Shown: in pieces, positions 9,303-24,432 of the stretch
How the letters are laid out: every line of letters begins with the position of its first letter
Position numbering within the stretch: position 1 is the stretch's first letter
Assembly: GCF_014647195.1 (NCBI RefSeq)
Contig: NZ_BMOS01000005.1
Span: 109,740 to 147,372 of the forward strand
Direction of reading: 5' to 3'
Source: Oceanobacillus indicireducens
Lineage (GTDB): Bacteria; Bacillota; Bacilli; Bacillales; Amphibacillaceae
DNA length: 37,633 bases
Program-made: the position numbers and the translations under genes
The notes under the pieces: model-generated
Seen by the model: only the letters and a program-made list of their open reading frames with translations
Told to the model about the DNA's origin: nothing
The model's database searches: none

Positions 9303-9529
9303 CTTAGCAATTCATTGGAAAACAATATTAAAAAAAAGCCGTGTCTAGCCATATGGTTTGTCGACGAAAGCTGGGTTAACAAATTTGCTACGTGTAAGAG
9401 GAAATCTAGAGAAATATGAATCTAGTACAACGATATTGTAAATATTAATAAAAAAATGTTTCCAGCCTAAACATTGTTATATCAAGCTTTACCATTGCCC
9501 ATCAGTGAAACCATTTACACAACGTAAAC
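9303..9529. other. Intergenic stretch before hpf, nothing recognised
   Basis: AT-rich DNA between repeat copy A and the hpf promoter. I see no credible ORF, no strong hairpin with a T-run and no RNA gene. Together with the terminator, the repeat and the promoter it fills the gap of about 560 bases between fliT and hpf. Confidence 0.5.
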
Positions 9530-9555
9530 GTTTGAGGAGGAAAAGTACCGGGAAA
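9530..9555 (+). promoter_or_regulatory. Sigma-B type promoter of hpf
   Basis: GTTTGA (9530-9535), a 14-bp spacer and GGGAAA (9550-9555) fit the general-stress sigma-B consensus GTTTAA-N12-15-GGGWAW with one mismatch. B. subtilis hpf (yvyD) is known to be a sigma-B gene, which supports the call. The hpf start is 44 bases downstream. Confidence 0.65.
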
Positions 9556-9598
9556 CATAGTATACTATATATATAAAGAATTAAAGGAGGACACTTTT

Positions 9599-10150
9599 AT
9601 GAGATTTAACATTCGTGGAGAAAATATTGAGGTTACCGATGCTATTAGAGAGTATGTGGAAAAGAAAATCAGCAAGCTTGAGCGCTATTTCGATACTACT
9701 CAATCAACTGATGTTCATGTAAATTTAAGTGTCTATAATGATGAGCAGCGCATCGAAGTAACAATTCCAATGACCGACCTCCTATTACGTGGGGAAGTAC
9801 GACACGACGATCTATATGCAGCAATCGATTTAGTAGTAGATAAGTTAGAAAGACAAGTTCGAAAATATAAAACCAAAATCAACCGTAAATCCCGTCAACA
9901 TGGTGCACCTAAGCATGTATTTGCGGAAATGGAAAGAGAACTTGCGGATAATGAAGATACATCTGATAACTTTGAAATCGTGCGTACGAAGCGATTTGAT
10001 TTGAAACCGATGGATTCTGAAGAAGCGATACTTCAGATGGATATGCTCGGTCACTCCTTCTTTGTCTTTAATAATGTAGAATCAGGTGAAACAAGTGTTG
10101 TGTATCGCCGAAAAGATGGTAAATACGGTTTAATTGAACCAACACTGTAA
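9599..10150 (+). CDS. hpf: HPF (long form), ribosome hibernation factor
   Basis: Binds the 30S decoding region and joins ribosomes into inactive 100S dimers in stationary phase or stress; formerly yvyD. The 183 residues have the N-terminal S30AE domain (MRFNIRGENIEVTDAIREYVEKKISKLERYF on) and, from about residue 125, the C-terminal dimerisation domain (FDLKPMDSEEAILQMDMLGHSFFVF...VVYRRKDGKYGLIEP). This is the long form typical of Firmicutes. AAAGGAGG precedes the ATG and a sigma-B type promoter lies upstream. In B. subtilis secA follows directly; here an 11-kb island intervenes. Confidence 0.96.
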   Translation: MRFNIRGENIEVTDAIREYVEKKISKLERYFDTTQSTDVHVNLSVYNDEQRIEVTIPMTDLLLRGEVRHDDLYAAIDLVVDKLERQVRKYKTKINRKSRQHGAPKHVFAEMERELADNEDTSDNFEIVRTKRFDLKPMDSEEAILQMDMLGHSFFVFNNVESGETSVVYRRKDGKYGLIEPTL

Positions 10151-10163
10151 GAAATAGGATATT

Positions 10164-10204
10164 AAAAGGTTCCAAGCAAATTTTAAACGCTTGGAACCTT
10201 TTCA
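10164..10204. terminator. Bidirectional terminator between hpf and the deacetylase gene
   Basis: A perfect 14-bp stem (10164-10177 with 10189-10202) begins AAAA and ends TTTT, so it can end transcription of hpf on the plus strand and of the converging deacetylase gene on the minus strand. Confidence 0.9.
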
Positions 10205-10245
10205 CTTATTATTATTTTACTAGTTATGTCCGGCCTCTATTAGAA

Positions 10246-12747
10246 TTATTCCTCTGCACCATAGCTGATTAAATTTGTGAAAATACGATATCCCCCTGGT
10301 ACTTGACTGTCTATTTGACGATAGAAGACTAGGCTGGAATAAAGGTATGTTCCTTCACCATAATCTGCTAATAGGATACCACCGTCGAATGCCTCTTCAT
10401 CGGGGTCTGCCATTTCTACGAATGTCTCGTAACGGTCATCCCAATTCATCGGGAAGTAGAGACCGCGTTCCTGCACCCAGTTGTCCCAGTCATTATCTGT
10501 GATCTGGTTTGGATAATTGAATAGCTTGTGCTCAGGCTGAGTCATTGTAACTTCTGCATTTTCATCGGTAACCCGCCATTCAATTGATGGTGAGCCGATC
10601 TCCAGATGATAAGGAGCTGAAGCTTCGACATCCCAGTTATCTCCTGGCTTGTGATATTGAACCACAAGGTGACCGCCCTCCTCTACATATTGAAGAAGTC
10701 TAGCGTTATTCTCGACTAAATCTGGTCGGGACAAGTTGGCTCTGATACCAGTCACAATAGTATCAAATTGAGATAAATCACTTGATGCTAGGTCTTCTTC
10801 TGTCAGTTTTGTAATATTAAAGCCAGCATTAATTAAGTGATTTGCGACATTATCAAATCCGCTTTCAATATAACCGACTTTAAGGTTGTCTGGGATAAGC
10901 AATTCAAAGGCTTCACCATCGGCAGCAGATGAATAAAGAAAATATTCATCATTTATATGATCATATTGAATCTCTTGCACTGTTGTGTCAAAGGTTTTTC
11001 CATTTGATATTGCATAAGCTTCAATTTCAAAATTGCCTTCCTCTATATCTGCAGGCGAACTAACAGTAAAGGTTACTTCCTGTTCTTCAAAACGCTCTGT
11101 GAATGAAACCTCTGTTGTATTTGGTTCACTTGTCCACCCTTCAGGCAATTTTAATGCTACTTCCGCATCTCGTGAATTTATGTCATAGTTCTTAACTCTA
11201 ACCTTAAGTGGTATATTTTCTTTTACATCTGCGGTATTTACCATTATACTTTCAGGGTCAACGCTAACAGCAAGCTCCGGAAGCACAGCTGCGGTATTAT
11301 CTAGTTCTAAAGGAACAGCCGTCTCTGTTCCTTTTTCCTTAAAGGACACGATAGGCTGTATTACAGGTTCATCATAAGGATGATAATATGCTTCATCTTC
11401 AGGAACTTCTAAATGAAATACTGCTGTTTTTGTTTCTCCCGGCTTCATATGTTTTACATTAACAGCCCCATTATATTTCCAGTTTTCAGGAAGTTCTAAT
11501 GCAGCTTGTACATGATTAACTTTTTTATCTCCCTCGTTGGAGAGAGTCATCGTTACTTGCACTTTTTCACCTTGTGTTATTACAGATGAATCGATTGTCG
11601 TTTCAACATTTAGGTTTGATGAAACGAAGCTCACCTCTGTAAGCTGTTCGGCTTTCAATTCTAGTTTATGAAGTAAATCATGCTTTACATCTGGTGCTAG
11701 CTTAGCTTTATCCACTTTCTTTATTAAATTTTGTGTTTCTTTTAAAGCCTGTTGTGATTCAGGGAAAATTTCAGTTCGGTTCGGGTATAACTTGATAATT
11801 TTATCCAGCTTTTTTTGCAGCTTTTTTAGCTGGTTGCTTAGAACAGGCTGAGAAACAACCTCTGCCCATTCTTTTAAATCATAAGGAATACCCTCAAACA
11901 AATTATTTTCCTGTGTCGTTACTGCACTGTCAACTAATTCTAAATGCGTTTGCTTTGGTTCGGCTGGGATGTCTCTTCCCATTCCCTGGCTCTTATGCAG
12001 GTATCTCGATTCTTCTCCCAGCTGTGGGTAGGTCATATCGTAAACAGGATCATAATCACCAATTTCAATGGAAAGAGTGGCCGTTTCTTGTGATTCTGCA
12101 GGTAAATAAAGTTTTTTCACCTGCCAAGGTTCCAAGCCTTCTTCAAGTTGCTCAGGGAAAACGTTTGGATCTGCAGCATCAGTAAAAGCTCTTTCACTTA
12201 AAATTGTCATTGTACGATGATGACCGTGCTGACTATTAACATCTCGAAAGGAGGGCATGACAATATCAGGTTGATATGTTCTTATAAAGCGGATCAGACG
12301 CTCATAAGTAAGCTCTTCTCCCCATTTTTCCAAAGTTTCTTCAGGAGACTTTGAAAAGCCAAAATCATAAATAGAATCTGAAATTGTTTCACTTAGATGG
12401 TAAGCTTTAACCCCTGTTATTTTCGCAGCTTCTTTCATTTCATTTGAACGGATAATGCCAAGTGCATTATCAAGCTCACTGCCGATTTCATTCTGACCGC
12501 CTTCTCCGCGGTTAGCAATCAGGCTTGAGGTTTTTACACCTAATCCTCTGGATAAGTATGCTAGAAAATCACTGCGCTCATCATCGGGATGTGCACCTGT
12601 ATTTAAAAAACTTACAGTAGTGCTCAAAGGTTTAACTGCATTCCATAAATCTATATCATGTTCGGTTTTTTTCTGAGCGAATCCAGACAAAGATACAGTT
12701 GGTAAAATAAGCAGGACTGTTATTAATAAAGTAAAAGTCTTCTTCAA
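10246..12747 (-). CDS. Secreted PIG-L family deacetylase with C-terminal accessory domains
   Basis: Probable secreted zinc-dependent N-deacetylase of the PIG-L/LmbE family, which acts on GlcNAc-containing compounds. A signal peptide (MKKTFTLLITVLLILP...) has a likely cut after SGFA (residue 24). The metal motif is AHPDDE (H53, D56) with HGHH at 174-177. PIG-L domains usually end near residue 250. Here about 580 more residues follow: a helical stretch, two NEW3/Ig-like beta domains (about 380-590, with LPENW and LPEGW repeats) and a GATase1/ThuA-like Rossmann domain near 610-830. The frame is open from 12780, but the TTG at 12747 follows AAAGGGG and gives a clean signal peptide. It is divergent from the ROK regulator, with an operator between. 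The substrate is unknown. Confidence 0.85.
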   Translation of the reverse strand: MKKTFTLLITVLLILPTVSLSGFAQKKTEHDIDLWNAVKPLSTTVSFLNTGAHPDDERSDFLAYLSRGLGVKTSSLIANRGEGGQNEIGSELDNALGIIRSNEMKEAAKITGVKAYHLSETISDSIYDFGFSKSPEETLEKWGEELTYERLIRFIRTYQPDIVMPSFRDVNSQHGHHRTMTILSERAFTDAADPNVFPEQLEEGLEPWQVKKLYLPAESQETATLSIEIGDYDPVYDMTYPQLGEESRYLHKSQGMGRDIPAEPKQTHLELVDSAVTTQENNLFEGIPYDLKEWAEVVSQPVLSNQLKKLQKKLDKIIKLYPNRTEIFPESQQALKETQNLIKKVDKAKLAPDVKHDLLHKLELKAEQLTEVSFVSSNLNVETTIDSSVITQGEKVQVTMTLSNEGDKKVNHVQAALELPENWKYNGAVNVKHMKPGETKTAVFHLEVPEDEAYYHPYDEPVIQPIVSFKEKGTETAVPLELDNTAAVLPELAVSVDPESIMVNTADVKENIPLKVRVKNYDINSRDAEVALKLPEGWTSEPNTTEVSFTERFEEQEVTFTVSSPADIEEGNFEIEAYAISNGKTFDTTVQEIQYDHINDEYFLYSSAADGEAFELLIPDNLKVGYIESGFDNVANHLINAGFNITKLTEEDLASSDLSQFDTIVTGIRANLSRPDLVENNARLLQYVEEGGHLVVQYHKPGDNWDVEASAPYHLEIGSPSIEWRVTDENAEVTMTQPEHKLFNYPNQITDNDWDNWVQERGLYFPMNWDDRYETFVEMADPDEEAFDGGILLADYGEGTYLYSSLVFYRQIDSQVPGGYRIFTNLISYGAEE

Positions 12748-12812
12748 TTTTGTAACCCCTTTCATTATATTAATTGTCAAATAACCTGCATAAGGCCTCC
12801 TTTCTATAAATA

Positions 12813-12843
12813 AGCTAAGTTAGTTAGCAAAACTAACTTAGCT
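12813..12843. promoter_or_regulatory. Palindromic operator upstream of the deacetylase gene
   Basis: A perfect 13-bp inverted repeat (12813-12825 with 12831-12843) has a 5-bp spacer, core TTAGTTAG-CAAAA-CTAACTTA. Its core is shared with a second palindrome at 13103-13121 on the other side of the intergenic region. The half-site resembles the TTAGTTTG type operators known for XylR, a ROK regulator. Binding by the adjacent ROK protein is inference. Confidence 0.65.
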
Positions 12844-12854
12844 AAACGCTATCA
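12841..12854. promoter_or_regulatory. Possible second cre-like site (weak)
   Basis: GCTAAACGCTATCA matches the Bacillus cre consensus TGWAANCGNTNWCA at 12 of 14 positions and overlaps the end of the palindromic operator by three bases. It could place the deacetylase gene under CcpA as well, but two mismatches at the outer end make this tentative. Confidence 0.3.
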
Positions 12855-13060
12855 CAAGCAATTAACGGTGTAAATATTCTAAAAGTTCCATGTTTTTCTT
12901 GATAAAATAATACTAGATAACAGATATTTTTATTGAATTGAGATATTACTGCTAGATTAACATTATCCAAAAGGCTTGATACGGAATAAATTTAAGGGTG
13001 TCAGCATAGGTTAGAAGGATAGGCCTGATGGACTATTCTCTGAAAAATTAAAAAAAGACA
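12855..13060. other. Central part of the divergent intergenic region
   Basis: AT-rich, with no ORF or hairpin of note. I could not place a convincing promoter for the minus-strand deacetylase gene. The full gap between the two divergent starts is 428 bases, with regulatory sites at both ends. Confidence 0.4.
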
Positions 13061-13089
13061 TTGACATGAAATCGCTTCCATATTATACT
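13061..13089 (+). promoter_or_regulatory. Sigma-A promoter of the ROK-ABC-lyase-kinase operon with embedded cre site
   Basis: TTGACA (13061-13066), 17 bp, TATACT (13084-13089) is a near-perfect vegetative promoter. The spacer itself (13067-13080, TGAAATCGCTTCCA) fits the CcpA cre consensus TGWAANCGNTNWCA at 13 of 14 positions, so CcpA would block RNA polymerase directly. The ROK-type operator at 13103-13121 begins about seven bases after the expected transcription start. Confidence 0.8.
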
Positions 13090-13102
13090 GGGCATACTTT
13101 GG

Positions 13103-13121
13103 TAGTTAGCTTTACTAACTA
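13103..13121. promoter_or_regulatory. Palindromic operator downstream of the ROK promoter
   Basis: TAGTTAG-CTTTA-CTAACTA is a perfect 7-bp inverted repeat with 5-bp spacing, sharing both arms and spacing with the 12813-12843 palindrome. Its position just after the promoter fits roadblock or exclusion repression of the ROK gene and the operon after it. Confidence 0.65.
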
Positions 13122-13175
13122 AGTTTTTAAGTCAGCAAAAAAGAACGCGCTGTGCAGAAATGGTTGTGATGGCAA

Positions 13176-14342
13176 GTGAAAAAATCTACTCCTCAATTAG
13201 TTAAAATGATGAACAGAGAATTAATTATCAATGAATTAAGACGTAATCCAAAGCAGTCTCGGGCGGATTTATCTAAAAAGACAAAGCTCAGTAAGCCAAC
13301 TATTTCAGAAATTGTCAGGGAACTGCTCGATGAAGAGTTAATTCTTGAAACAGGGGTGGGCGAGTCAAGTGGCGGTAAAAAGCCAATCTATCTTAAATAC
13401 AATTCTCGCTTTAACTTTGTTGTTAGTGTTTTAATAGAAAATGATTCTATACATTTTGCATTAGGTGATATGAGTGGAGAAATTCTAACGCTATTTAAGC
13501 AGAAATTCATACCACATAGTGATGGAACGGTTATCATAGATTCAATTGAAGAAGGGGTTGAAAGACTTTTAGAGTTAGAGAAAGTCACGATGGATAAGGT
13601 GCTGGGCATGGTTGTTGGAGTTTCGGGTATTAAAATGGATTCCGATGACATGATTCGTTCATCACCGACGATTCGATGGGGAAATACGAATTTAAGAAAG
13701 GAATTATCTTCACGTCTGAAAGTTGATGTCATTATTGAAAATGACGTGAACTTGATGACAATTGGTGAATTTTATAAAGGACAAGGTCAAAACATCGCTA
13801 ATTTCGTTTATTTGTTTATTGGTAATGGCATTGGCAGCGGGCTTTTCTTAAATGAAAAGTTTTATAAAGGGTCGCACTCTGCTTCAGGAGAAGTAGGCTT
13901 TATGATGATAGGAGATGAAAATAATATTAAGCAGGAGTTGGGTGTATTTGAAACAAATTATGGTTTATTTGGGGTCTCTGAAAGATTAAGAGAGTTAGAA
14001 GTTAATCTAGCAACGTGTGAGGCTGATTCTTTACTTCATATACTGCAATATCATCAAAATGATGCAAGGATAAAGGAAATTTTGGAAGAAACGATTGATC
14101 ATTGGGCCAAAGCAGCGATTAATCTGATTAGTATTATTGATCCTCAGGCTGTCATTTTATCAGGAGAGCTTGTTAATATGAACCAAACTTCATTACATGC
14201 TTTTAAACAAAAAATTGAAAGATTTGTCCCGCAAATGCCTGAGATTAAAGTAACTGAATTAGGTTCTAAAGCCGGTATATATGGAGCGTTTCATCTTGGT
14301 TTAGCAGAATTTCATGTTGCTGGCTTTAAATATAAAAAATAA
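13176..14342 (+). CDS. ROK family transcriptional regulator
   Basis: XylR/NagC-like regulator that probably represses the divergent genes until a sugar-type inducer binds. Of 388 residues, the first 75 are a winged helix (LRRNPKQSRADLSKKTKLSKPTISEIVRELLDE). The rest is a ROK sugar-kinase-like domain with a phosphate-loop relic (VIENDVNLMTIGEFY, LFIGNGIGSGLFLN) and EVGFMMIG. The CxCGxxGC zinc motif of many ROK proteins is absent; the place reads EQGVFETNYGLFG-like (QELGVFETNYG). It starts at GTG 13176, because an in-frame stop lies at 13167-13169. Only a weak ribosome binding site is seen. Its binding sites are likely the two palindromes upstream. Confidence 0.9.
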   Translation: MKKSTPQLVKMMNRELIINELRRNPKQSRADLSKKTKLSKPTISEIVRELLDEELILETGVGESSGGKKPIYLKYNSRFNFVVSVLIENDSIHFALGDMSGEILTLFKQKFIPHSDGTVIIDSIEEGVERLLELEKVTMDKVLGMVVGVSGIKMDSDDMIRSSPTIRWGNTNLRKELSSRLKVDVIIENDVNLMTIGEFYKGQGQNIANFVYLFIGNGIGSGLFLNEKFYKGSHSASGEVGFMMIGDENNIKQELGVFETNYGLFGVSERLRELEVNLATCEADSLLHILQYHQNDARIKEILEETIDHWAKAAINLISIIDPQAVILSGELVNMNQTSLHAFKQKIERFVPQMPEIKVTELGSKAGIYGAFHLGLAEFHVAGFKYKK

Positions 14343-14366
14343 CAATTCTATTTGGAGGGGTTAAGT

Positions 14367-15428
14367 TTGAAAAAGAAATTCGTATTAATATTAATGGCTG
14401 CCTTTATTTTAGTATTACTTGCGGCATGTGATGGCGATAATTCTTCAGATGGCACTGGGGAAAGCGATTCCGAAGAAGCTTCAGGAAATCTTGTCGTTTA
14501 TACTGCACGTGATCAAACAGTAGTTGATAAGGTTGTAGAAATGTTTAATGAAGAATACCCGGATATTCAGGTAGATGTTCTGACAATGGGTGCACAGGAA
14601 ATTATGGAACGTGTACGTGGTGAAAAGTCAAACCCAGGAGGAGACTTCTGGTGGGGAGGCACACAGTCTGCGTTTATGCAGGCAGCTGATGAGGATTTGT
14701 TAGAGCCTTTTACACCAAGCTTTGATGACGCAATTGAACCAGAACATAAGGATCCAGAGGGAAGATGGTATGGAGAAATGCTTCTGCCTGAGGTTATCAT
14801 GATTAACAGTGATGTTTTAGATAAAGAATCTGGGCCTCAGGATTGGGATGATTTGCTAGACGAAGAATGGGAAGATGAGATTATTATTCGCGGCGTATTA
14901 CCATCTGGAACGATGAGAACAATTTATGCTTCAATGATTTATCGTCAAGATCCGAATGATCCTGAAAAGGGTTATGAGTGGCTGGAAAAGCTTGATGCTA
15001 ACACGAAGGAATATGCACAGGATCCTACTAATTTATACTTGAAACTTGCTCGTCAAGAAGGAACGCTTTCGCTATGGAACTTGCAGGATATCCTTATTCA
15101 GGCACATGCAAATAATCAACCATTCGATTATATTTACCCAGAGAGTGGTGCGCCGATTTTAGTTGATGCAGTAGGTATTATTAAAGACGCGAAGAATAAA
15201 GAGAATGCTGAACTGTTCTATGAATTCTTATTTGATCCTGAAACAGTTGTAGAGTTGTCAGAAGAAACATATCAAATCCCGTCACGGAATGATATTGATC
15301 CTGATGCAATGCCGGATTGGTACAATGAACTTGAACTAAAAGAACTTGATCTTGATTGGGAAGTCTTATCTGAAAATGAAATGGACTGGATGGATTATTG
15401 GGATAATAACATTAAAGATCAAAATTAA
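14367..15428 (+). CDS. ABC importer substrate-binding lipoprotein (iron/polyamine type)
   Basis: Membrane-anchored receptor of a binding-protein-dependent importer, family of bacterial extracellular solute-binding proteins related to FbpA/AfuA and phosphonate receptors. A 353-residue lipoprotein: signal segment KKKFVLILMAAFILVLLAAC with lipobox LAAC (C21), then a Ser/Asp/Glu linker and the domain start LVVYTARDQTVVDKVVEMFNEEYP. NPGGDFWWGGTQ and LPSGTMRT are typical ligand-loop segments. The paired iron-binding tyrosines of FbpA are not evident, so iron itself may not be the ligand. TTG at 14367 is used because GGAGGGG precedes it. A hairpin terminator follows. Confidence 0.88.
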   Translation: MKKKFVLILMAAFILVLLAACDGDNSSDGTGESDSEEASGNLVVYTARDQTVVDKVVEMFNEEYPDIQVDVLTMGAQEIMERVRGEKSNPGGDFWWGGTQSAFMQAADEDLLEPFTPSFDDAIEPEHKDPEGRWYGEMLLPEVIMINSDVLDKESGPQDWDDLLDEEWEDEIIIRGVLPSGTMRTIYASMIYRQDPNDPEKGYEWLEKLDANTKEYAQDPTNLYLKLARQEGTLSLWNLQDILIQAHANNQPFDYIYPESGAPILVDAVGIIKDAKNKENAELFYEFLFDPETVVELSEETYQIPSRNDIDPDAMPDWYNELELKELDLDWEVLSENEMDWMDYWDNNIKDQN

Positions 15429-15444
15429 TTTTAGCCTTAAATGT

Positions 15445-15479
15445 GTAGGGTGATGTACTCATATATCACCCTGCTTTTT
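15445..15479 (+). terminator. Attenuating terminator between binding protein and ATPase genes
   Basis: A 10-bp stem (15445-15454 with 15465-15474, one G-T pair) is followed by CTTTTTA. Such a hairpin after the receptor gene commonly leaves more receptor than membrane components; read-through to the downstream genes is assumed. The 15480-15625 leader has no other clear promoter. Confidence 0.75.
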
Positions 15480-15625
15480 ATCTCAGTGTAGCTGGCAGTA
15501 AGATCCATCTCCTAAAAGTTGCGTTCCAACAGTCAGTAACGGACCGGTTGGTTCAACTAACATTAAGTGAGATGAAAAGAACCTCCCATTTAATGAAGTT
15601 TCGCTATAAAAGAAAGGTGAAGTTT

Positions 15626-16702
15626 ATGAAAAGTGTCAGATTAGAACATATCACAAAGAAGTTTGGAAAAGCAAAGGGAGTAGAAGATGTTGATATTCAT
15701 ATCAAATCAGGAGAGTTTTTTACATTTTTGGGACCGAGTGGTTGTGGGAAAACAACAACATTAAGAATTATTGCTGGTTTCTACTTTCCAACAGAAGGTA
15801 AAGTCTATTTTGATAATGAGGATATTACAGGTTTAAAGCCGAATAAAAGAAATATAGGCATGGTGTTTCAAAACTATGCACTTTTTCCACATATGACTGT
15901 GTTTGAAAATATTGCCTTTGGTTTGCAAGTAAGAAAGCTATCAAGCAGTGAGATTAAAAGTAAAGTAGAAAAGGCACAAAAGTTTGTCCATCTAGAAGGA
16001 TATGGCAACCGGAAAATAACAGAGCTATCAGGTGGGCAGCAGCAGCGTGTAGCTCTTGCAAGAGCATTAGTAATAGAACCAGATATTCTATTGCTTGATG
16101 AGCCATTATCCAACCTTGATGCTAAGTTACGGGAAGAAACACGGATTGAAATTAAACGTTTACAGGTTGAACTGGGAATTACAACGATTTATGTTACACA
16201 TGATCAGCATGAGGCAATGTCGATGTCCGATCGGATAATGGTGATGGATAAAGGAGAAATCCAGCAAATTGGTACACCACAGGAGATTTATAATAAACCG
16301 GTTAATCATTTTGTTGCTTCATTTATAGGAGAATCTAATATTATAAAAGCCGATGTGAAAAACCTGACAGATACGCATGTCACGGTCGATATTGGTGGCG
16401 GTATCATACTAAAAGGATTAAGAGAGAATGGTTCTCCAATGCTTGACTATGCAAATGAAGATAGCGTGCTGCTCTCCATTCGTCCTGAAATGATTAACAC
16501 TGGAGAGGGAGCAAATACATTAACCGGCATCATTCAATTGAGTGAGTTTACTGGGGTAAGTATTAATTATATTGTGAAAGTTGGAGATCACGAATTAAAT
16601 GTAATGATTGTTAATGCAAGAACAAAAGTCTTGGAACGAGGTGATACGATTACATTGCATGTTCCTGAAAGCGGGATTTATTTTATGAGTGAAAAGAGGT
16701 AA
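15626..16702 (+). CDS. ABC importer ATPase (PotA/FbpC type)
   Basis: Energises the importer, at the cytoplasmic membrane face. The 358 residues have Walker A GPSGCGKTT, Q-loop VFQNYALFPHMTV, signature LSGGQQQRVALARALV, Walker B ILLLDEPLSNLD and the switch His in YVTHDQ. From about residue 240 a TOBE-type C-terminal domain follows (IIKADVKNL...LSIRPEMI). The frame is open from 15548, but the ATG at 15626 follows AAGAAAGGTGAAG and gives the normal N-terminus MKSVRLEHITKKFG. Four bases separate it from the permease gene. Confidence 0.93.
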   Translation: MKSVRLEHITKKFGKAKGVEDVDIHIKSGEFFTFLGPSGCGKTTTLRIIAGFYFPTEGKVYFDNEDITGLKPNKRNIGMVFQNYALFPHMTVFENIAFGLQVRKLSSSEIKSKVEKAQKFVHLEGYGNRKITELSGGQQQRVALARALVIEPDILLLDEPLSNLDAKLREETRIEIKRLQVELGITTIYVTHDQHEAMSMSDRIMVMDKGEIQQIGTPQEIYNKPVNHFVASFIGESNIIKADVKNLTDTHVTVDIGGGIILKGLRENGSPMLDYANEDSVLLSIRPEMINTGEGANTLTGIIQLSEFTGVSINYIVKVGDHELNVMIVNARTKVLERGDTITLHVPESGIYFMSEKR

Positions 16703-16706
16703 TAAC

Positions 16707-18443
16707 ATGACGACTAATAGTGAAACTCGTGCACCAAAACAAAGTATGTGGAAAAGAATAACACAATCGAAATACTTTGTTTATGTTTTAATATCACCTT
16801 TGGTTTTCGTTTTATTAGCCTACGTCATCTTTCCGATGTACAAAACGTTTTTACAAAGTGTGGTCGATCAGGAAGGTTCCTTGTCTTTAACAAATTACCT
16901 TAGATTTTTTACGTCAGAGGCTAACTTAGAATCCCTCTATAATAGTATATTTATTTCAATAGTTAGTGTTATCACTTGTGCAATCGTTGGTGTTGGGATG
17001 GCTTTTCTATTAAATAGATATGAATTTCCCGGAAGAAAAATATTATCTATCCTTGTTTTAGTTCCGATGGCATTACCGCCATTAATTGGTGCAATATCTT
17101 TTTCCTTTTTATATGGAAGCAGCGGGATTTTTCCGCGGCTCTTTCAATCGATCTTCCAGTTAGATAATGTTCCATTTGCGTTGGAGGGTATTTGGGGAAT
17201 TATAATTGTGCATACCTTTACGATGTATACATATTTCTATTTGAGTGCATCGGCTGCAATCAGAGGTTTGGATTTATCACTTGAGGAAGCTGCAACTAGT
17301 CTAGGTTCCGGCCGATTGAGAATTTGGCGTAAAATTATTTTACCTATGTTAACCCCTGCGATGGTTGCATCATCATTATTAGTATTTATGATTTCTATGG
17401 CCTCGTATACAGCACCGCTTATGTTTGGAGTTGAGCGTGTGATGACAATGGCGATTACACTTTCAAGAACAAATGGAAATCTGGACATGGCAGCAACACA
17501 ATCGACTATTTTGTCGCTTGTTTCCATTGCCTTTTTAATATTAATGACATGGTATCAAAATCGCAGAAATTATCAAAGTCAGAGTAAAGGTGTGGGTGTG
17601 CATCGAACGGAAGTAAGTTCACCAGTTGTAAAATACATCGCTGCTATTTTATCTACAATTGGGGTTTTTATTTTGATGCTTCCAATCTTGGTAATTGCCT
17701 TAATTTCGTTTGCGGTAGACGGTGAATGGACGACGCAAATTATTCCAACGTCATATACCTTTGAACATTATATTGAATTATTTACTGATTCAAGAACTTG
17801 GGGACCAATTAAGAATAGCATTCAAATGAGTATTGTCGCAGTGATCGGGAATATTATCTTCGGTGTAGCAGCTGCTTACGCGATGGTGCGCTTTGCATTT
17901 AAAGGTAAAGTATTTATGGACATATTAATTATGGTTCCTTGGGCTTTGCCAGGGACTGTTGTGGCGGTAAACTTGATATCTGCGTTCAGTGAAGGGAATG
18001 TATTTTCCTTTAATCAGGTATTAGTTGGTACATTTTGGATTTTACCACTGGCTTATTTTGTTCGACAGTTACCGCTCGTTTTCCGGAATACACAAGCCAG
18101 TTTAATACAGATGGATGATTCTATTGAGGAAGCAGCGCAAAGTCTTGGGGCTACATGGTGGCATTCGTTTAGAAGAGTTGTACTGCCAATTATTATGCCA
18201 GGAGTTTTAGCAGGAACGTTGTTAGCCTTTGTACAAGGGTTAACAGAATTCGTTGCTTCTATTTTACTCTATTCACCTTCAACGATGCCTTTGTCTGTAG
18301 GTATATGGAATAAAATGTACTCCTTCCAATTTGGAACAGCCTGCGCTTATGGAGTATTGCAAACAATTTTGATTATTGTTGTTCTGCTCATAAATGAAAG
18401 GCTGAAAGGTGGCACAAATCAATCTGGTGCTTCAATTGGCTAA
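16707..18443 (+). CDS. ABC importer permease, fused two-domain (FbpB/ThiP type)
   Basis: Single protein of 578 residues forming the whole membrane channel. Each half has about six hydrophobic segments and one EAA loop: EEAATSLGSGRLRIWRKIILP in the first half (EEAATSLG near residue 192) and EEAAQSLGATWWHSFRRVVLP in the second (near residue 475). Fused permeases of this kind are typical of iron(III), thiamine and 2-aminoethylphosphonate importers. A GTG at 16689 is also in frame, but the ATG at 16707 follows AAAAGAGGTAATAAC and avoids overlap with the ATPase gene. Confidence 0.92.
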   Translation: MTTNSETRAPKQSMWKRITQSKYFVYVLISPLVFVLLAYVIFPMYKTFLQSVVDQEGSLSLTNYLRFFTSEANLESLYNSIFISIVSVITCAIVGVGMAFLLNRYEFPGRKILSILVLVPMALPPLIGAISFSFLYGSSGIFPRLFQSIFQLDNVPFALEGIWGIIIVHTFTMYTYFYLSASAAIRGLDLSLEEAATSLGSGRLRIWRKIILPMLTPAMVASSLLVFMISMASYTAPLMFGVERVMTMAITLSRTNGNLDMAATQSTILSLVSIAFLILMTWYQNRRNYQSQSKGVGVHRTEVSSPVVKYIAAILSTIGVFILMLPILVIALISFAVDGEWTTQIIPTSYTFEHYIELFTDSRTWGPIKNSIQMSIVAVIGNIIFGVAAAYAMVRFAFKGKVFMDILIMVPWALPGTVVAVNLISAFSEGNVFSFNQVLVGTFWILPLAYFVRQLPLVFRNTQASLIQMDDSIEEAAQSLGATWWHSFRRVVLPIIMPGVLAGTLLAFVQGLTEFVASILLYSPSTMPLSVGIWNKMYSFQFGTACAYGVLQTILIIVVLLINERLKGGTNQSGASIG

Positions 18444-18469
18444 TAACCAAAAGAAAGGATGTAAAAAAA

Positions 18470-19993
18470 GTGGTATCATTACATAGGCAAAAAATCTTAG
18501 AAAAAGAGGGTAACCAGTTTCCAGCGAAAACATATAAAGATTTGGTTCTTGAACCAGCGTATAATCAGGCGAAATTCAACGCCATTCGCCCAATGCTTCA
18601 AATTCATTTTGCACATTTGATTATGTTAGTTGAAGAGGGGATAGTTAAGAAGGAAGAAGCAGTAAAAATAGTCAAATCGCTTAATAAAATTGATATAAAA
18701 GAAGTCGGGGAACGATTTTATAACGGCTCTTATGAGGATTTATTTTTCGAGGTAGAGGATTTTCTTATTCAAGATGCTGGAGAACTTGCTGGGAATCTCC
18801 ATATCGCTCGCAGCAGAAATGATATGGGAATCGCAATCTACCGTATGAATATTCGTGAGCGATTATTATATCTGATTGAAGCGGCTTTACATTTGCGGCA
18901 AAGTCTAATTGAGTTGACTGAAGAGCATATCGATACAGTGATGATTGGCTATACACATACACAACAGGCTCAACCTACAACACTCGGTCATTATTTTAAT
19001 GCAATGACTGACATGCTTACAAGAGATATTGAACGGCTGCAGGCTGCTTTTGTAACGGTGAATAAGAGTAGTATGGGAGCAGCAGCGCTCACAACTTCAG
19101 GCTTTTCAATTAATCGTGGGACAGTTCAAGAGTTGCTCGGCTTTGAAGGGATAATAGATAATGCTTGGGACGCTGTTTCTGGTGCAGATTATATTGGGGA
19201 AACAGCAACTGCTGTCCAATTGGCTGCAATTGATTTAGGCCGTTCCACTCAAGATTTGTTATTATGGGGAACACAGGAATTTGGTGCGTTTAAGCTGTTT
19301 AGTCCGTATGTGCAAATCAGTTCCATTATGCCGCAAAAACAGAATCCTGTGTCTATTGAACATACACGTGCAATGTTATCGAGTGTGAAGGGGGATGTGG
19401 AAACGGTTTTATCCATGATGCATAATACTCCATTTGGAGATATTGTAGACACGGAAGACGACATGCAGCCATATATGTGGAACGCGCTTGAGAAGCTAAC
19501 AAATATTTATTATTTATTGTCAGGTGTGTTAATGACAATGAAGGTAAATAAGAAAAAATTGCTGAAGCGGGCGAAGGAAAGCTTTGCCAATGTGACAGAG
19601 CTTGCTGATACACTCGTTCGATCAAATAATTTATCTTTTAGAAAAGCACATGAAATTGTCAGTGCCTCTGTACAGGACTTAGTTGAAAATGACAAGGAGT
19701 CCTTGAGATATTTTACATTGGATCATCTAAACAAGCATGCACAGCAGATTATTGGACATAAGTTGAATATGAGATCAGAAGAATTGGCTGATGCATTAGA
19801 TCCGGAACATTTTATTAAAATCCGTTCACTAGAAGGCGGGCCAAGTAAAGAAAGAATGCAGAAGACCGTTGAAGTAAGGTATGAGCAGCAACGCACAATA
19901 AGTGCCTGGCTGGCCGGCAAAAGAAAAGTATTGGAAGCGGCTAGTAAAAAAATTGACAGTAAACTTAAAAGTTTGATGCCAGATGACGAGTAA
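18470..19993 (+). CDS. Argininosuccinate lyase-like enzyme (fumarase/aspartase superfamily)
   Basis: Predicted lyase that splits a C-N (or C-O) bond by beta-elimination, releasing fumarate in the known family members. Conserved parts: SRNDM at 115-119, HTQQAQPTT with the catalytic-region His163, and the signature loop SSIMPQKQNP at 284-293 with the catalytic Ser. Argininosuccinate lyase normally reads SRNDQ; the Met here, the 507-residue length (about 460 is usual) and linkage to an importer rather than argG argue for another substrate, as in EDDS-lyase type relatives. It starts at GTG after AAGAAAGGATG. It overlaps the frame of the kinase gene at its end. Confidence 0.86.
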   Translation: MVSLHRQKILEKEGNQFPAKTYKDLVLEPAYNQAKFNAIRPMLQIHFAHLIMLVEEGIVKKEEAVKIVKSLNKIDIKEVGERFYNGSYEDLFFEVEDFLIQDAGELAGNLHIARSRNDMGIAIYRMNIRERLLYLIEAALHLRQSLIELTEEHIDTVMIGYTHTQQAQPTTLGHYFNAMTDMLTRDIERLQAAFVTVNKSSMGAAALTTSGFSINRGTVQELLGFEGIIDNAWDAVSGADYIGETATAVQLAAIDLGRSTQDLLLWGTQEFGAFKLFSPYVQISSIMPQKQNPVSIEHTRAMLSSVKGDVETVLSMMHNTPFGDIVDTEDDMQPYMWNALEKLTNIYYLLSGVLMTMKVNKKKLLKRAKESFANVTELADTLVRSNNLSFRKAHEIVSASVQDLVENDKESLRYFTLDHLNKHAQQIIGHKLNMRSEELADALDPEHFIKIRSLEGGPSKERMQKTVEVRYEQQRTISAWLAGKRKVLEAASKKIDSKLKSLMPDDE

Positions 19994-20021
19994 AGAATAT
20001 TTTTTCCATGCAGGTGATGAC

Positions 20022-21026
20022 TTGAGCAAAACTTTTAAAAAATCCATACGGGAAAATCAACCAGCTGAACAAAAAGAATTGCCCATATTAGCCATTGATG
20101 GTGGAGGAACGAAGACAATTGCCGTGATTACAGATAAAGCAGGAAATGTATTAAGTACGGGGAAGTCTGGCACAGCGAACTACCATGTTGCAGGTAAAAA
20201 GGGTGCAATAAATACGCTTAAAGAAGTGATCGTAAAAGCAGTGAATAACCTAAAGAAATATCACTATCCAGATCGCTTTGTTGAAATAAGCTTTCATAAA
20301 TGTGTGTTTGCTCTTGCCGGAATTGATACAAAAAAAGATCAAGTAAATGTAGATGAAATTGTTTCACAGGCGCTTGCACAGAGCGGTATCAAAATAGATA
20401 AAGTGATTATAGAAAATGATGCACTATCCGTTTTGCTTGGGGCAACTAATAATCAGCCTGGAGCCATTCTTATTGCGGGTACGGGCTCTATTGTTTTTGC
20501 ACATGATGGAAAAGAAAATTATGTACGAACAGGAGGTTTTGGACACAGACTCGGAGATGAAGGCAGTGGCTATTGGATAGGGAAACAAGCCATTTCTGCG
20601 ATTTTAAAAATGCATGATGGTCGAGGACCGAAAACGCTGCTACAGGAGCTAGTGTTGGAGCATTTTAATTTTACAGATCATGAAGCACTCTATAACTGGG
20701 TATACAGCCCCGATTTTTCCATTCATCAAGTTGGCGCTCTGGCAAAAATAGTTGAGAAAGCAAATTACGAGGGAGACGGAGCGAGCAGAACTATTTTAGA
20801 ACAATCAGCTGACGAGCTGTATCAGCTTGTCAGCACTGCTGTGAATCGTGTCGGGATTGTGGATGTTCCATTTAAATTGCTTCTTCTCGGTGGTGTTCTG
20901 CAAAATAGTCATTTTGTGAAGGGGCAATTATTAGATAGGGTGAAGCAAGCAATGCCAGGCGCTGAGTTGTTGTATACGCATAAAAAGCCAATTGAGCTTA
21001 TTATCCAAAGAGGGCTGAATGGGTGA
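20022..21026 (+). CDS. BadF/BadG-type sugar kinase (N-acetylglucosamine kinase-like)
   Basis: Predicted ATP-dependent kinase of the BadF/BadG/BcrA/BcrD ATPase family, whose sugar-acting members phosphorylate GlcNAc or MurNAc. With the TTG start it has 334 residues. The phosphate-1 motif is IDGGGTKT at 25-32; then come IIENDALSVLLGA, ILIAGTGSIVFA (phosphate-2) and the FGHRLGDEGSGYWIG motif diagnostic of the family. An ATG at 19983 overlapping the lyase gene by 11 bases is possible, but only the TTG at 20022 has a ribosome binding site (CAGGTGATGAC). It is the last gene of the operon; a terminator follows at 21110. Confidence 0.88.
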   Translation: MSKTFKKSIRENQPAEQKELPILAIDGGGTKTIAVITDKAGNVLSTGKSGTANYHVAGKKGAINTLKEVIVKAVNNLKKYHYPDRFVEISFHKCVFALAGIDTKKDQVNVDEIVSQALAQSGIKIDKVIIENDALSVLLGATNNQPGAILIAGTGSIVFAHDGKENYVRTGGFGHRLGDEGSGYWIGKQAISAILKMHDGRGPKTLLQELVLEHFNFTDHEALYNWVYSPDFSIHQVGALAKIVEKANYEGDGASRTILEQSADELYQLVSTAVNRVGIVDVPFKLLLLGGVLQNSHFVKGQLLDRVKQAMPGAELLYTHKKPIELIIQRGLNG

Positions 21027-21109
21027 ATGGAATTGAGTCAGACTGGTAAAAGGATCGGAAAATGGTATTAAATGTCTTCCCGCATAGGTTGGGAAGCTAA
21101 AATTAGATG

Positions 21110-21148
21110 AATAACTCCTCAATGACCAGTGCATGAGGGGTTATTTTT
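21110..21148 (+). terminator. Terminator of the island operon
   Basis: AATAACTCCTCA (21110-21121) pairs with TGAGGGGTTATT (21134-21145, one G-T pair) and is followed by TTTTG. A smaller hairpin CTTCCC/GGGAAG lies just upstream near 21075-21095. Confidence 0.85.
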
Positions 21149-21181
21149 GTAGATTACAAATATAAAAAATGCAAACAGTGG

Positions 21182-21406
21182 GTGAGTAAAATCTTCCGTT
21201 TTACTTTTTACTCGGGCAAATTGGAGTTCTTCGACGGGAAGAAATTTAACACGCATTCTCAGTTGCTGCTTGGAATATCTGGCCGGGCTACAAAATGGCT
21301 GTTGATTGGTTATGTCCCATTACTTTGGTTTTGGCTCTTTATAGACATTTTTCTCATTCCTGGGATTTACGGAAATCCACTAGTTATATCCATGCAAAAT
21401 CCTTAA
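21182..21406 (+). pseudogene. TM2-domain-like remnant
   Basis: A 74-codon frame with a GTG start and no good ribosome binding site. Its second half (QLLLGISGRATKWLL...WLFIDIFLIPGI) resembles the C-terminal half of TM2 membrane domains, which read roughly QLLTLGGLGIWWLIDLFLIPGM. The expected first half (FFLGxLGxHRFYLGK) is not in this frame, but LLGQIGV is readable in another frame at about 21213-21233, followed by FFDGKK in the original frame. This pattern suggests two small indels in a decayed gene. The identification rests on my memory of the domain pattern and is tentative. Its end overlaps the antisense pseudogene. Confidence 0.35.
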
Positions 21407-21702
21407 GCGGGAGGGGGTTCTCTATATCCATTCTCCCTGTAGAATCAACTTCAATTCTTTCTGCTTCCAGAGACAAAAGCTGTTCATAGTATTGTTCATA
21501 TTCTTTTGGAGCAATATAACCATTGGTGTTAATAACTCGATGCCATGGTAAGTTATATATTTTGCTTATCTTATGAAGAATACGAGCAACTTGCCGTGCT
21601 GCTCGCGGATCCGGCAATTTCGGCTATTTGCCCATATGTCATTACTTTCCTATTTGGAATTTCTATTATTATTTGGATTACCTTTTCTGTAAATCGTAAC
21701 AT
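21384..21702 (-). pseudogene. Frameshifted alkyltransferase-like (ATL) gene
   Basis: On the minus strand from ATG 21702 (after GGGGAG) the frame reads MLRFTEKVIQIIIEIP then KVMTYGQIAEIAGS, the start of the O6-alkylguanine transferase DNA-binding domain. It then runs into a wrong frame. From about 21615 the correct continuation appears in another frame: PRAARQVARILHKISKIYNLPWHRVINTNG and onward to 21384. The joined product would be about 106 residues. The active-site PCHR is PWHR, which marks the ATL group that binds alkylated bases without transferring them. The break fits a 2-bp loss in a C-run (GGATCCCCG to GGATCCG). A sequencing error cannot be excluded. Confidence 0.8.
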
Positions 21703-21843
21703 GCGAATCTCCCCGTACATTTTATTTATGAAAAAGTATACCATTAAATCCCTCTCGTCAAAATATCATGCTTCCGGAATACTCTCGGGCAAGATCATTT
21801 ATCGCAAATGCCGTATCGCAACGGTTGTTTTCGCCCTTGATTG
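21703..21843. other. Intergenic stretch before the secA promoter
   Basis: Between the ATL pseudogene start and the secA promoter region I see no gene or hairpin of note. A plus-strand open frame at 21545-21892 is antisense to the ATL remnant and has no family resemblance. Confidence 0.4.
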
Positions 21844-21873
21844 TTGTCAGGCTTTGACATATAGTGTTATGAT
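21844..21873 (+). promoter_or_regulatory. Candidate sigma-A promoter of secA
   Basis: TTGTCA (21844-21849), 18 bp, TATGAT (21868-21873); each hexamer has one mismatch to consensus. A competing reading uses TTGACA at 21854 with a poorer -10. The secA start is 43 bases downstream of the -10. Confidence 0.5.
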
Positions 21874-21915
21874 TATAGTGTTAAGGTATTGATTAGATTG
21901 AGGAGCGTATAATAT

Positions 21916-24432
21916 ATGGCAGGATTTTTGACAAAGATATTTGGCGATGGTAATAAGCGCCAAGTTAAACGAATTGAAAAAAGTACAGACGAAGTAGAAG
22001 CTTTAGAACCAGAAATGGAGAAGCTTTCAGATAATGAATTGAAAAATAAAACAGAAGAATTCAAAGAAAGAATTGAAAAAGGCGAGACGTTGGACGACCT
22101 ACTCGTAGAAGCTTATGCCGTAGTGCGTGAAGCATCAAGACGAGTGTTGAACATGCGCCCATTCAGGTCCCAGATTATGGGAGCAATTGCCCTTCATGGC
22201 GGAAACATTGCCGAGATGAAGACAGGGGAAGGTAAGACTTTAGCTTCCACTATGCCGGCATATTTAAATGCTCTAGCAGGAAATGGTGTCCATATTATTA
22301 CCGTTAACGAATATCTGGCAGAGCGTGACGCAAATGAAATGGGTGAACTATATAGTTTTCTCGGTCTAACCGTTGGATTAAACTTAAACAGCTACACGAA
22401 AGAACAGAAGCGTGAAGCTTACCAATGTGATATTACGTATGGAACAAACAATGAGTTCGGTTTCGACTACTTACGGGACAATATGGTCCTTTATAAGGAA
22501 CAGATGGTACAACGGCCACTTAACTTTGCTATCATTGACGAGGTCGACTCGATCTTGATTGATGAAGCGAGAACACCGTTAATCATCTCAGGAGCAGCTA
22601 AGAAGTCTGCATCGCTTTATACTCAGGCGAACAGTTTTGTAACAACATTAAATAGAGAAACAGACTACACCTATGATGAGAAAACGAAAGGTGTCCAACT
22701 TACAGAAGAAGGTATTAACAAAGCGGAACGATTTTTCAATATCGAAAACTTGTTTGACTTGGATAATGTTTCCTTAACCCATCATATTAACCAAGCATTA
22801 AAAGCCCATGTGGCTATGCATCGCGATGATGATTATATGGTAGAGGAAGGACAAGTCGTTATCATTGACCAGTTCACTGGACGTAAAATGAAAGGTCGTC
22901 GCTATAGTGATGGCCTGCATCAAGCGATTGAGGCTAAAGAGGGACTACAAATTCAAAATGAAAGTATGACCTTAGCATCCATCACCTTCCAAAACTACTT
23001 CCGGATGTACAACAAGTTATCCGGGATGACAGGTACTGCGAAGACGGAAGAGGAAGAATTCCGTAATATTTATAATATGGATGTCATCGTTATTCCGACG
23101 AATAAGCCTATTATCCGGGAAGACCGTCCCGATTTGATTTATAAATCTATGGAAGCGAAGTTCCGCGCAGTCGTTGCAGAGATTAAAGAACGACATCAAG
23201 CTGGTCAGCCTGTGCTTGTCGGTACGGTAGCTGTTGAAACTTCCGAATTGATTTCAAAAATGCTTAAAAAAGCTGGCGTTCGACATGAAGTGCTTAACGC
23301 AAAGAACCACTACCGTGAGGCGGAAATTATTGAAAACGCCGGAGAAAAAGGTTCTGTAACGATTGCAACGAACATGGCAGGCCGTGGAACAGATATCAAG
23401 CTTGGAGAGGGTGTTCCTGAACTTGGCGGTCTTGCGGTAATTGGAACAGAACGTCATGAATCGAGACGGATTGATAACCAGCTACGAGGACGTTCTGGCC
23501 GTCAAGGAGATCCTGGTGTAACACAATTCTATCTCTCCATGGAAGATGAATTGATGCGCCGCTTCGGTTCAGATAACCTCCGGGCTATGATGGACCGATT
23601 CGGAATGGATGAGGATCAACCGATCGAAAGTAAAATGGTGAGCCGTGCAGTAGAATCTGCACAGAAACGAGTTGAAGGAAATAACTTTGATGCGCGGAAG
23701 ACAATTCTCTCCTATGATGACGTTCTACGTGAGCAACGGGAAATTATCTATAAACAGCGCTTTGAAGTGATCGATGCTGAAGACGGCTTAACTGAAATTA
23801 TCATGAATATGATACGTTCTTCGGTAGATCGGGTAATTGATTCCCATACACAGGATGATGATGAGGATCAATGGAACATCAATGCGATTATAGAGCATAT
23901 TCACGCGAATTTATTAAGTCCCGAAGTGATTAAGAAAGAAGATTTAATGGGTAAAGAACCGGAAGAAATGAAAGAACTCATCATGGAGAAAGTACAACAA
24001 TCCTATGATGAGAAGCGGGAAGAGTTAGAACCGGATCAGTTCCACGAGTTCGAGAAGGTTATTGTACTTCGCGCGGTCGATTCGAAATGGATGGATCATA
24101 TCGACCAAATGGATCAGCTCCGTCAAGGAATTCACCTGCGTGCATACGGACAGACAGAACCGCTCCGTGAATACCAGATGGAAGGATTCCAGATGTTTGA
24201 GCAAATGGTTCATTCCATTGAAGATGAAGTTGCAAGATTCATCATGAAAGCACAAATTCGTGAGAACCTACAACGGGAAGAAGTCGTGAAAAATACGACA
24301 GCTGCCCACGGGGGGCAAGACGGCAAGAAAAAGGTACGTAAACCTGTTATAAAAGAAAACCGAGTCGGCCGAAATGACCCATGCCCATGTGGCAGCGGCA
24401 AGAAGTATAAAAATTGTCACGGTAAAAACTAA
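21916..24432 (+). CDS. secA: SecA, preprotein translocase ATPase
   Basis: Peripheral membrane motor that drives unfolded preproteins through SecYEG. The 838 residues have Walker A MKTGEGKT at 101-108, [19 protein letters not shown] (motif II), [13 protein letters not shown] and the [13 protein letters not shown] helicase motif. A C-terminal zinc finger [14 protein letters not shown] binds SecB or ribosomes in other bacteria. The size matches B. subtilis SecA (841). A ribosome binding site TTGAGGAGCG precedes the ATG. secA adjoins prfB as usual; its other usual neighbour, hpf, is displaced by the island. Confidence 0.98.

Follow-up and report, generated by a model that had tools for sequence, protein, structure and literature searches.

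The stretch of DNA analyzed here (the window, 37,633 nucleotides of Oceanobacillus indicireducens, contig NZ_BMOS01000005.1) carries, between hpf and secA, a cluster of seven genes at positions 10246-21026, in which a gene for a PIG-L-type amidohydrolase is divergent from a unit encoding a ROK-family regulator, a substrate-binding protein (SBP), the ATPase and fused permease of an ATP-binding cassette (ABC) importer, a lyase, and a BadF-type kinase (Table 1). An earlier note had described seven genes in two divergent units in this hpf/secA setting, with shared operators, a CcpA-type site, and terminators, and this description was borne out by the open reading frames (ORFs), all seven of which were found where it had placed them, and by Pfam, motif, and hairpin scans. 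All seven proteins gave Pfam matches above cut-off, namely PIG-L with NPCBM_assoc and CARDB, ROK, SBP_bac_6, ABC_tran with TOBE_2, BPD_transp_1 (two stretches), Lyase_1 with ASL_C2, and BcrAD_BadFG. Sequence inspection puts the likely starts of three genes elsewhere than in the longest ORFs, at 14368 for the SBP (TTG), 15626 for the ATPase (ATG), and 16707 for the permease (ATG). Of 25 other genomes in the genus, 21 have hpf and secA separated by 182-1288 bp, and for the remaining 4 secA lies outside the fetched flank.

Table 1. Features of the cluster between hpf and secA (window positions)
Feature	Position	Strand	Basis
PIG-L/LmbE amidohydrolase, 844 aa; PIG-L domain, NEW3/CARDB domains, C-terminal domain without Pfam match	10246..12780	-	Pfam PIG-L 58.7 bits, NPCBM_assoc 60.4, CARDB 29.4
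Palindromic operator copy 1, AGTTAG-N5-CTAACT, PIG-L side	12822..12838		Motif scan; within longer inverted repeat 12811-12845
Promoter TTGACA-17-TATACT of the ROK-to-BadF unit	13061..13089	+	11/12 matches, best in 9500-22000
cre-like CcpA site ATGAAATCGCTTCCA inside the promoter	13066..13080		Full match to WTGNAANCGNWNNCW
Palindromic operator copy 2, immediately 3' of the -10 box	13104..13120		Motif scan
ROK-family regulator, likely repressor	13176..14342	+	Pfam ROK 130.8 bits
Lipoprotein SBP, SBP_bac_6, P5PA/AfuA-like	14368..15428	+	Pfam and solved-structure matches; start and lipobox by reading
Terminator-like hairpin between SBP and ATPase genes	15445..15474	+	13 pairs; -19.4 kcal/mol, z -5.7
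ABC ATPase with TOBE domain	15626..16702	+	Pfam ABC_tran 130.3 bits
Fused two-domain (FbpB-type) permease	16707..18443	+	Two BPD_transp_1 stretches
Fumarase-superfamily lyase, annotated argininosuccinate lyase	18470..19993	+	Pfam Lyase_1 152.3 bits; pocket comparison; own clade
BadF-type sugar kinase (hexokinase/NagK-like)	19983..21026	+	Pfam 129.6 bits
Hairpin with T run 3' of the kinase gene	21108..21148	+	-16.8 kcal/mol, z -3.5; not among simple-scan matches

Searching genomes for these families as neighbors, the check that the earlier note had proposed, showed that they co-occur widely beyond this strain. When GTDB genomes were scanned with the lyase, 23 loci emerged, of which 14 showed 54-81% identity and were titled Compostibacillus, Lentibacillus, Cytobacillus, Neobacillus, Metabacillus, Sporosarcina, Lysinibacillus, Paenibacillus, or Bacillus; the lyase was found in 72 of 398 genomes of the class (E 1e-95) and 18 of 398 of the phylum (E 1e-80), and the large PIG-L in 40 of 348 genomes of the order. 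Neighborhoods of at most about 20 kb, some ended by contig ends, were taken around 38 order, 40 class, 16 phylum, and 11 genus matches, and three repeats (loci L067, L136, and L137) and three more distant lyases (L066, L238, and L239) were left out, so that the count covers 107 lyase loci, each with its own lyase sequence, the window excluded. Partners in these loci are PIG-L (80), ROK (77), an FbpB-type importer (70), a CUT1 importer without the FbpB type (23), BadF (25), creatininase (15), a small PIG-L (13), amidohydrolase_2 (5), and an EamA permease (5), with at least one of PIG-L, importer, EamA, and BadF in 104 of the 107. PIG-L lies no more than 8 kb from the lyase in 79 of its 80 loci. 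The permease is at 1.5 kb or less in 57 of 70 loci, as are the CUT1 genes in 18 of 23; four further CUT1 loci fall at 1.5-2.3 kb, and the one at 4.9 kb (L038) may be unrelated. The lyase tree requires 8 changes for the CUT1 loci, 7 of them forced by starred branches, so that importers were exchanged while PIG-L recurs on both sides. Creatininase and amidohydrolase_2 occur together in none of the 107 loci (chance expectation under one); the amidohydrolase_2-type gene stands with CUT1 genes or beside the lyase in L181, L182, L205, L228, and L229, and the window cluster has no creatininase, two such genes lying elsewhere in its genome. A reduced version, with an EamA-type permease, the lyase, and BadF in a row and no PIG-L, ROK, or ABC importer in the stretch, is seen in L043, L169, and L170.

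The lyase retains the features of the fumarase/aspartase superfamily, including the SSxMPxKxNP loop, the TH pair, and SRND, and residues S115, R116, N117, D118, T162, H163, Q165, S284, S285, K290, N292, and D327 are kept in all 110 system lyases aligned (the 107 loci plus the three repeats, the window not among them); position 291 is Gln in the window lyase and Arg in 107 of 110. In comparison with 18 same-genus ArgH proteins, chosen by length and the KKNP motif, the system lyases carry D for Y at 324 (110/110), E for Q at 329 (100/110), and Q for K at 333 (110/110), together with H for L at 298 (110/110) and H for K at 318 (108/110). The Y, Q, and K found in 18 of 18 ArgH proteins and replaced in the system lyases correspond to Y323, Q328, and K331 of the arginine-side pocket of argininosuccinate lyase (ASL). 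The new residues are acidic, amide, histidine, or aromatic (D324, E329, Q333, H298, H318, Y84, and F92); residues of these kinds are common where sugars bind, and a sugar site may be indicated. In a tree of 116 rows, made by a quick method and with long branches flagged, the window lyase and 109 system lyases stand on one side of a branch with a Shimodaira-Hasegawa-like approximate likelihood ratio (SH-aLRT) value of 100, and three ArgH and three outgroup rows on the other. Against the NCBIfam argH model (TIGR00838, cut-off 279.5), the window lyase scores 338.7 bits and three other system lyases 329.5, 341.5, and 314.6 bits, all above the cut-off, whereas four of the same-genus ArgH proteins, scanned with the same model, score 660-670. 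PRK06705 leads the other models widely for the window lyase (463.8 bits, below its cut-off of 883) and for two of those three, and narrowly for the third. The window's genome gave no argG, the best match reaching 20.9 bits versus a cut-off of 268.2 in a search whose control was positive in 14 of 14 genomes, 13 of them above cut-off, nor any second lyase with more than 28% identity to that of the cluster, which seems to leave the strain without the usual route to arginine. Because pocket residues and genome content disagree with it, the argH label, carried by all relatives with a public name among the matches listed, misleads, although the family scan alone gives ArgH.

The PIG-L protein of the window has a signal peptide, recognized by reading the sequence, which would place its action outside the cell. 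LmbE/PIG-L enzymes share an HxDD plus His metal motif, with Arg, Asp, and His binding glucosamine, and a 2014 review states, in the part available, that those identified until then all act on N-acetyl- or N-acylglucosamine cores (PMC4101496). The window PIG-L carries this full set of motif and glucosamine-binding residues, and H64, D66, D67, R111, D139, and H185 are conserved in 78 of 79 PIG-Ls and H188 in 79 of 79, R111 and D139 being equated with MshB Arg68 and Asp95 by reading of the sequence. Mca was the one NCBIfam model common to 16 of 16 PIG-Ls tested, and the window protein falls below the equivalog cut-offs of both Mca (43.8 versus 277.15) and BshB1 (23.2 versus 182.5). The two small PIG-Ls that were scanned match BshB2 best (110.2 and 117.2 versus a cut-off of 195.25); a separate BshB1 above cut-off is present in 11 of 12 genomes with a small PIG-L near the lyase, and none reaches it in the window's genome.

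On the import side, the SBP has as its best solved matches the pyridoxal phosphate-binding P5PA (102.7 bits) and then AfuA (4r72, 88.0 bits). The tyrosine pair of cFbpA, which binds iron in FbpA proteins, is not found in the SBP, the Tyr-Tyr of 1y4t aligning to Q245-D246 and the pair of 2pt1 falling in an insertion. In AfuA, according to the available part of the source (PMC4546632), His205, Asp206, and Glu229 bind the sugar and Thr150 the phosphate. Residue matching between AfuA and the SBP, by our own count, allows an offset of two in chain numbering; on this basis, the equivalents of Asp206 (D246, 69 of 70 SBPs) and Thr150 (T187, 70 of 70) are kept, at the Ser37 position 41 of 70 have S and 27 have A, and three arginines are added (R89 and R180, 70/70; R189, 69/70). 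Such residues would suit an anionic sugar conjugate, which is far from proof. The CUT1 binding protein of L061, the only one tested, matches sugar binders.

The remaining enzymes point toward an amino sugar. The BadF kinase has as its closest solved relatives the hexokinase 2e2n (137.8 bits) and the N-acetylmuramic acid/N-acetylglucosamine kinase 8zo3 (127.3 bits), and it falls within the BadF family, scoring 111.6 bits against a cut-off of 370 for NCBIfam NagK (SO3507 type). Similarly, NagC is the best model for the ROK protein, far below its cut-off (113.5 versus 650); the ROK domain and a winged helix-turn-helix are present, and the ROK zinc motif CxCGxxGCxE occurs in 3 of 77 ROK proteins, that of the window not among them. 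NagB proteins above the cut-off of 236.9 (263.6, 306.7, and 283.6 bits) adjoin system genes in L192, where nagB overlaps the lyase gene, in L224, where it follows the lyase and a PfkB kinase, and in L231, where it lies about 0.8 kb before ROK, and these neighbors favor glucosamine as the sugar. When the 1924 ORFs in 119 loci were searched by BLAST with the three proteins, no further NagB came up, and the window's genome encodes four NagB above cut-off.

Both units appear to share one mode of control. The palindrome AGTTAG-N5-CTAACT has only two copies in the whole window, even with spacers of 3-7 allowed, and the position of the second directly after the -10 box is that of a repressor site. 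A motif of this shape, written after inspection of these upstream regions and matched at 11 or more of its 12 fixed bases, precedes ROK in 54 of 77 loci; the corresponding figures are 11 of 653 for other genes and 13 of 1540 for block shuffles. Promoter-like sites are overall at chance (43 versus 41.6 in shuffles), that of the ROK-to-BadF unit having the top score of the list. For the CcpA site, WTGNAANCGNWNNCW was taken as the consensus of catabolite-responsive elements (cre), and one further match lies in the window, at 28372. Terminator-like sites number 15 versus 8.5 in shuffles; the hairpins 3' of hpf, SBP, and BadF have z values of -7.6, -5.7, and -3.5, the last being equaled by 1 of 200 shuffles. 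An Rfam scan of the window gave nothing at gathering cut-offs.

From the gene content, the conserved linkage, the separate lyase clade, the residue changes, and the operator motifs, all directly observed, the cluster on balance probably serves to scavenge and catabolize a small conjugate of glucosamine that carries a C4-dicarboxylate, its reactions, substrate, and mode of regulation being inferred from the genes. Outside the cell, the PIG-L would hydrolyze an N-acyl group off glucosamine, and the anionic product would be bound by the lipoprotein SBP and taken in through the fused permease with its ATPase. The lyase would then carry out, in the cytoplasm, an elimination of the argininosuccinate lyase type, giving fumarate and glucosamine or a near relative, which the BadF kinase would convert to glucosamine 6-phosphate and NagB to fructose 6-phosphate. 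ROK would repress both units at the twin operators until the pathway sugar appears, and CcpA would switch the unit off when better sugars are present. The multi-step pathway that the earlier note had proposed is partly supported: the order of its steps fits every gene and gains from the NagB neighbors, and its chemistry stays conditional. Given a lyase that has to release fumarate and a sugar end resembling glucosamine, the most likely substrate class, on this chemical argument, would be glucosaminyl-malate compounds (bacillithiol, its S-conjugates, and N-acetylglucosaminyl-malate).

A more specific proposal, which we advance only tentatively, is that the system is dedicated to the catabolism of bacillithiol, its S-conjugates, or its precursors, with a secreted amidase, import of glucosaminyl-malate, and a "glucosaminyl-malate lyase". 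To our knowledge, bacillithiol and its precursors are the natural compounds that join glucosamine and malate. The available part of the source gives bacillithiol as Cys-GlcN-malate (PMC4360819). In such a route, the amidase would strip the cysteinyl (or acetyl) group outside the cell, glucosaminyl-malate would be imported, and the lyase would free the sugar from malate by fumarate elimination, thereby opening a glycoside without a glycosidase; creatininase or amidohydrolase_2 would serve to open again a lactam or lactone that a malate carboxyl forms with the freed 2-amino group or with hydroxyls. As a test for endogenous bacillithiol, the presence of bshC does not separate carriers (genomes that have the lyase or PIG-L; 50 of 60) from genomes listed without a match (16 of 20) and is therefore uninformative. 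Were bacillithiol the substrate, scavenging would be expected of the 10 carriers that lack bshC.

Several observations weigh against the scavenging of a glucosamine conjugate as set out here. The lyase passes the argH cut-off; the SBP departs from the AfuA pattern, the His205 equivalent being P in 42 and Q in 28 of 70 proteins and that of Glu229 L in 69 of 70; and the PIG-L has H187 where BshB and teicoplanin deacetylase carry Asp before the last metal ligand. BadF is linked in only 25 of the 107 loci and NagB in 3, and the creatininase, amidohydrolase_2, and small PIG-L partners have no certain step. Among the 38 order PIG-L loci, 32 have a lyase of more than 420 residues, 2 a cut or short one (L132 and L143), and 4 no lyase in the stretch (L129-L131 and L140), and the NEW3 and CARDB domains of the large PIG-L could point to a polymer.

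An unlikely alternative is that the lyase cleaves a C-N bond, its substrate being an aminosugar or other amine N-linked to aspartate (ethylenediaminedisuccinate (EDDS)-like or Amadori-like), giving fumarate and an amine that the rest of the cassette handles. Its closest solved relatives, 6rx8 and 6g3d (242.8 and 240.6 bits), titled argininosuccinate lyase but representing EDDS lyase, a C-N lyase, rank ahead of ASL 2e9f (196.7 bits), and creatininase, linked in 15 of 107 loci, belongs to a cyclic-amide hydrolase family; however, 6rx8 and 6g3d have Y-T-Q where the system lyases keep T-H (110/110), and the PIG-L, NagB, ROK, and CUT1 partners indicate an N-acyl aminosugar. We regard it as improbable that a polymer of N-acetylglucosamine or a glycan of the cell wall is what the PIG-L trims, with the lyase acting on a separate, co-regulated nutrient: beyond the NEW3 and CARDB domains, this would agree with the 4 of 38 order loci with PIG-L and no lyase in view and the 27 of 107 with lyase and no PIG-L in view, but PIG-L and lyase recur together across importer exchanges and one operator is common to both window units. 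Uptake of iron or a metal chelate with an ordinary argininosuccinate lyase, the alternative that the earlier note had set against its own proposal, is very improbable and was set aside, for although the SBP and permease fall in Fe3+-type families and the argH cut-off and public names favor ArgH, the true ArgH proteins of the genus score far higher, the pocket residues are replaced, argG was not found in the genome, the tyrosine pair is not kept in the SBP, and ROK, BadF, PIG-L, and NagB would be left without a role.

Some neighboring features stand apart from this argument. The more distant ASL-like lyase of L066 (7820-14804), L238, and L239 (32-34% identity) occurs away from the PIG-L system and adjoins what read as GntR-like regulators and transporters of other types. 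In L065 (11022-16751), the ATPase and permease genes are tandemly duplicated within one cluster. Opine/hydroxyproline oxidase-like genes, so named by reading, recur nearby as separate units in several genera (L033, 8732-15023; L140; L145; L180), and peptidase M19 (membrane dipeptidase) genes lie near PIG-L or ROK in two distant loci (L035, 142-1074; L237, 13216-14232). L228, alone among the 107 loci, has an SDH_alpha protein between amidohydrolase_2 and the lyase; relatives of this shape are cysteine desulfidases, but NCBIfam gave it no family, and the arrangement was found in 1 of 10 genomes searched, that of L228 itself. Between the cluster and secA, a 115-aa ORF (window 21545-21892) gave no NCBIfam match.

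Together, the conserved cluster says that the system recurs in many Bacillota under misleading gene names (argininosuccinate lyase, iron-type importer). Each of its proteins is from a known family, and regulation, import, and the sugar end follow known amino-sugar logic; for the assembled pathway, no description was found in the open-access literature, as judged by title and abstract, most subscription papers being outside its coverage. With BshB and the S-conjugate amidases Bca and Mca of bacillithiol metabolism, it shares enzymes of the LmbE/PIG-L type, which acts on N-acyl-glucosamine cores, together with the Mca matches and the BshB2-like small PIG-Ls, whereas the window PIG-L is multidomain with a signal peptide and matches below the curated cut-offs, and a lyase, importer, and kinase for the glucosaminyl-malate part are not described in the portions of the literature consulted. 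If bacillithiol is the substrate, the system would be a growth route for the breakdown of this part, of which the open-access literature gave no description, and thiol turnover between cells would become directly testable. The lyase keeps the fumarate-forming core and signature loop of the EDDS lyase/ArgH family (PRK06705, argH) but differs in its leaving-group stretch, its separate clade, and a genome without argG. The hexose-phosphate importer AfuABC supplies the second nearest solved relative of the SBP after P5PA, with the Asp206 and Thr150 equivalents in common, whereas in the cluster the permease is fused, the His205 and Glu229 equivalents are not kept, and the SBP has three extra arginines. 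From NagC/NagK/NagB amino-sugar catabolism, which is similar in its ROK regulator, NagK-like BadF kinase, and, in three loci, NagB neighbors, the window cluster differs in having no NagA or phosphotransferase system gene, in a deacylation that would take place outside the cell, and in the insertion of a lyase that would release fumarate, so that, if the substrate class is right, a fumarate-releasing lyase would be added to amino-sugar catabolism.

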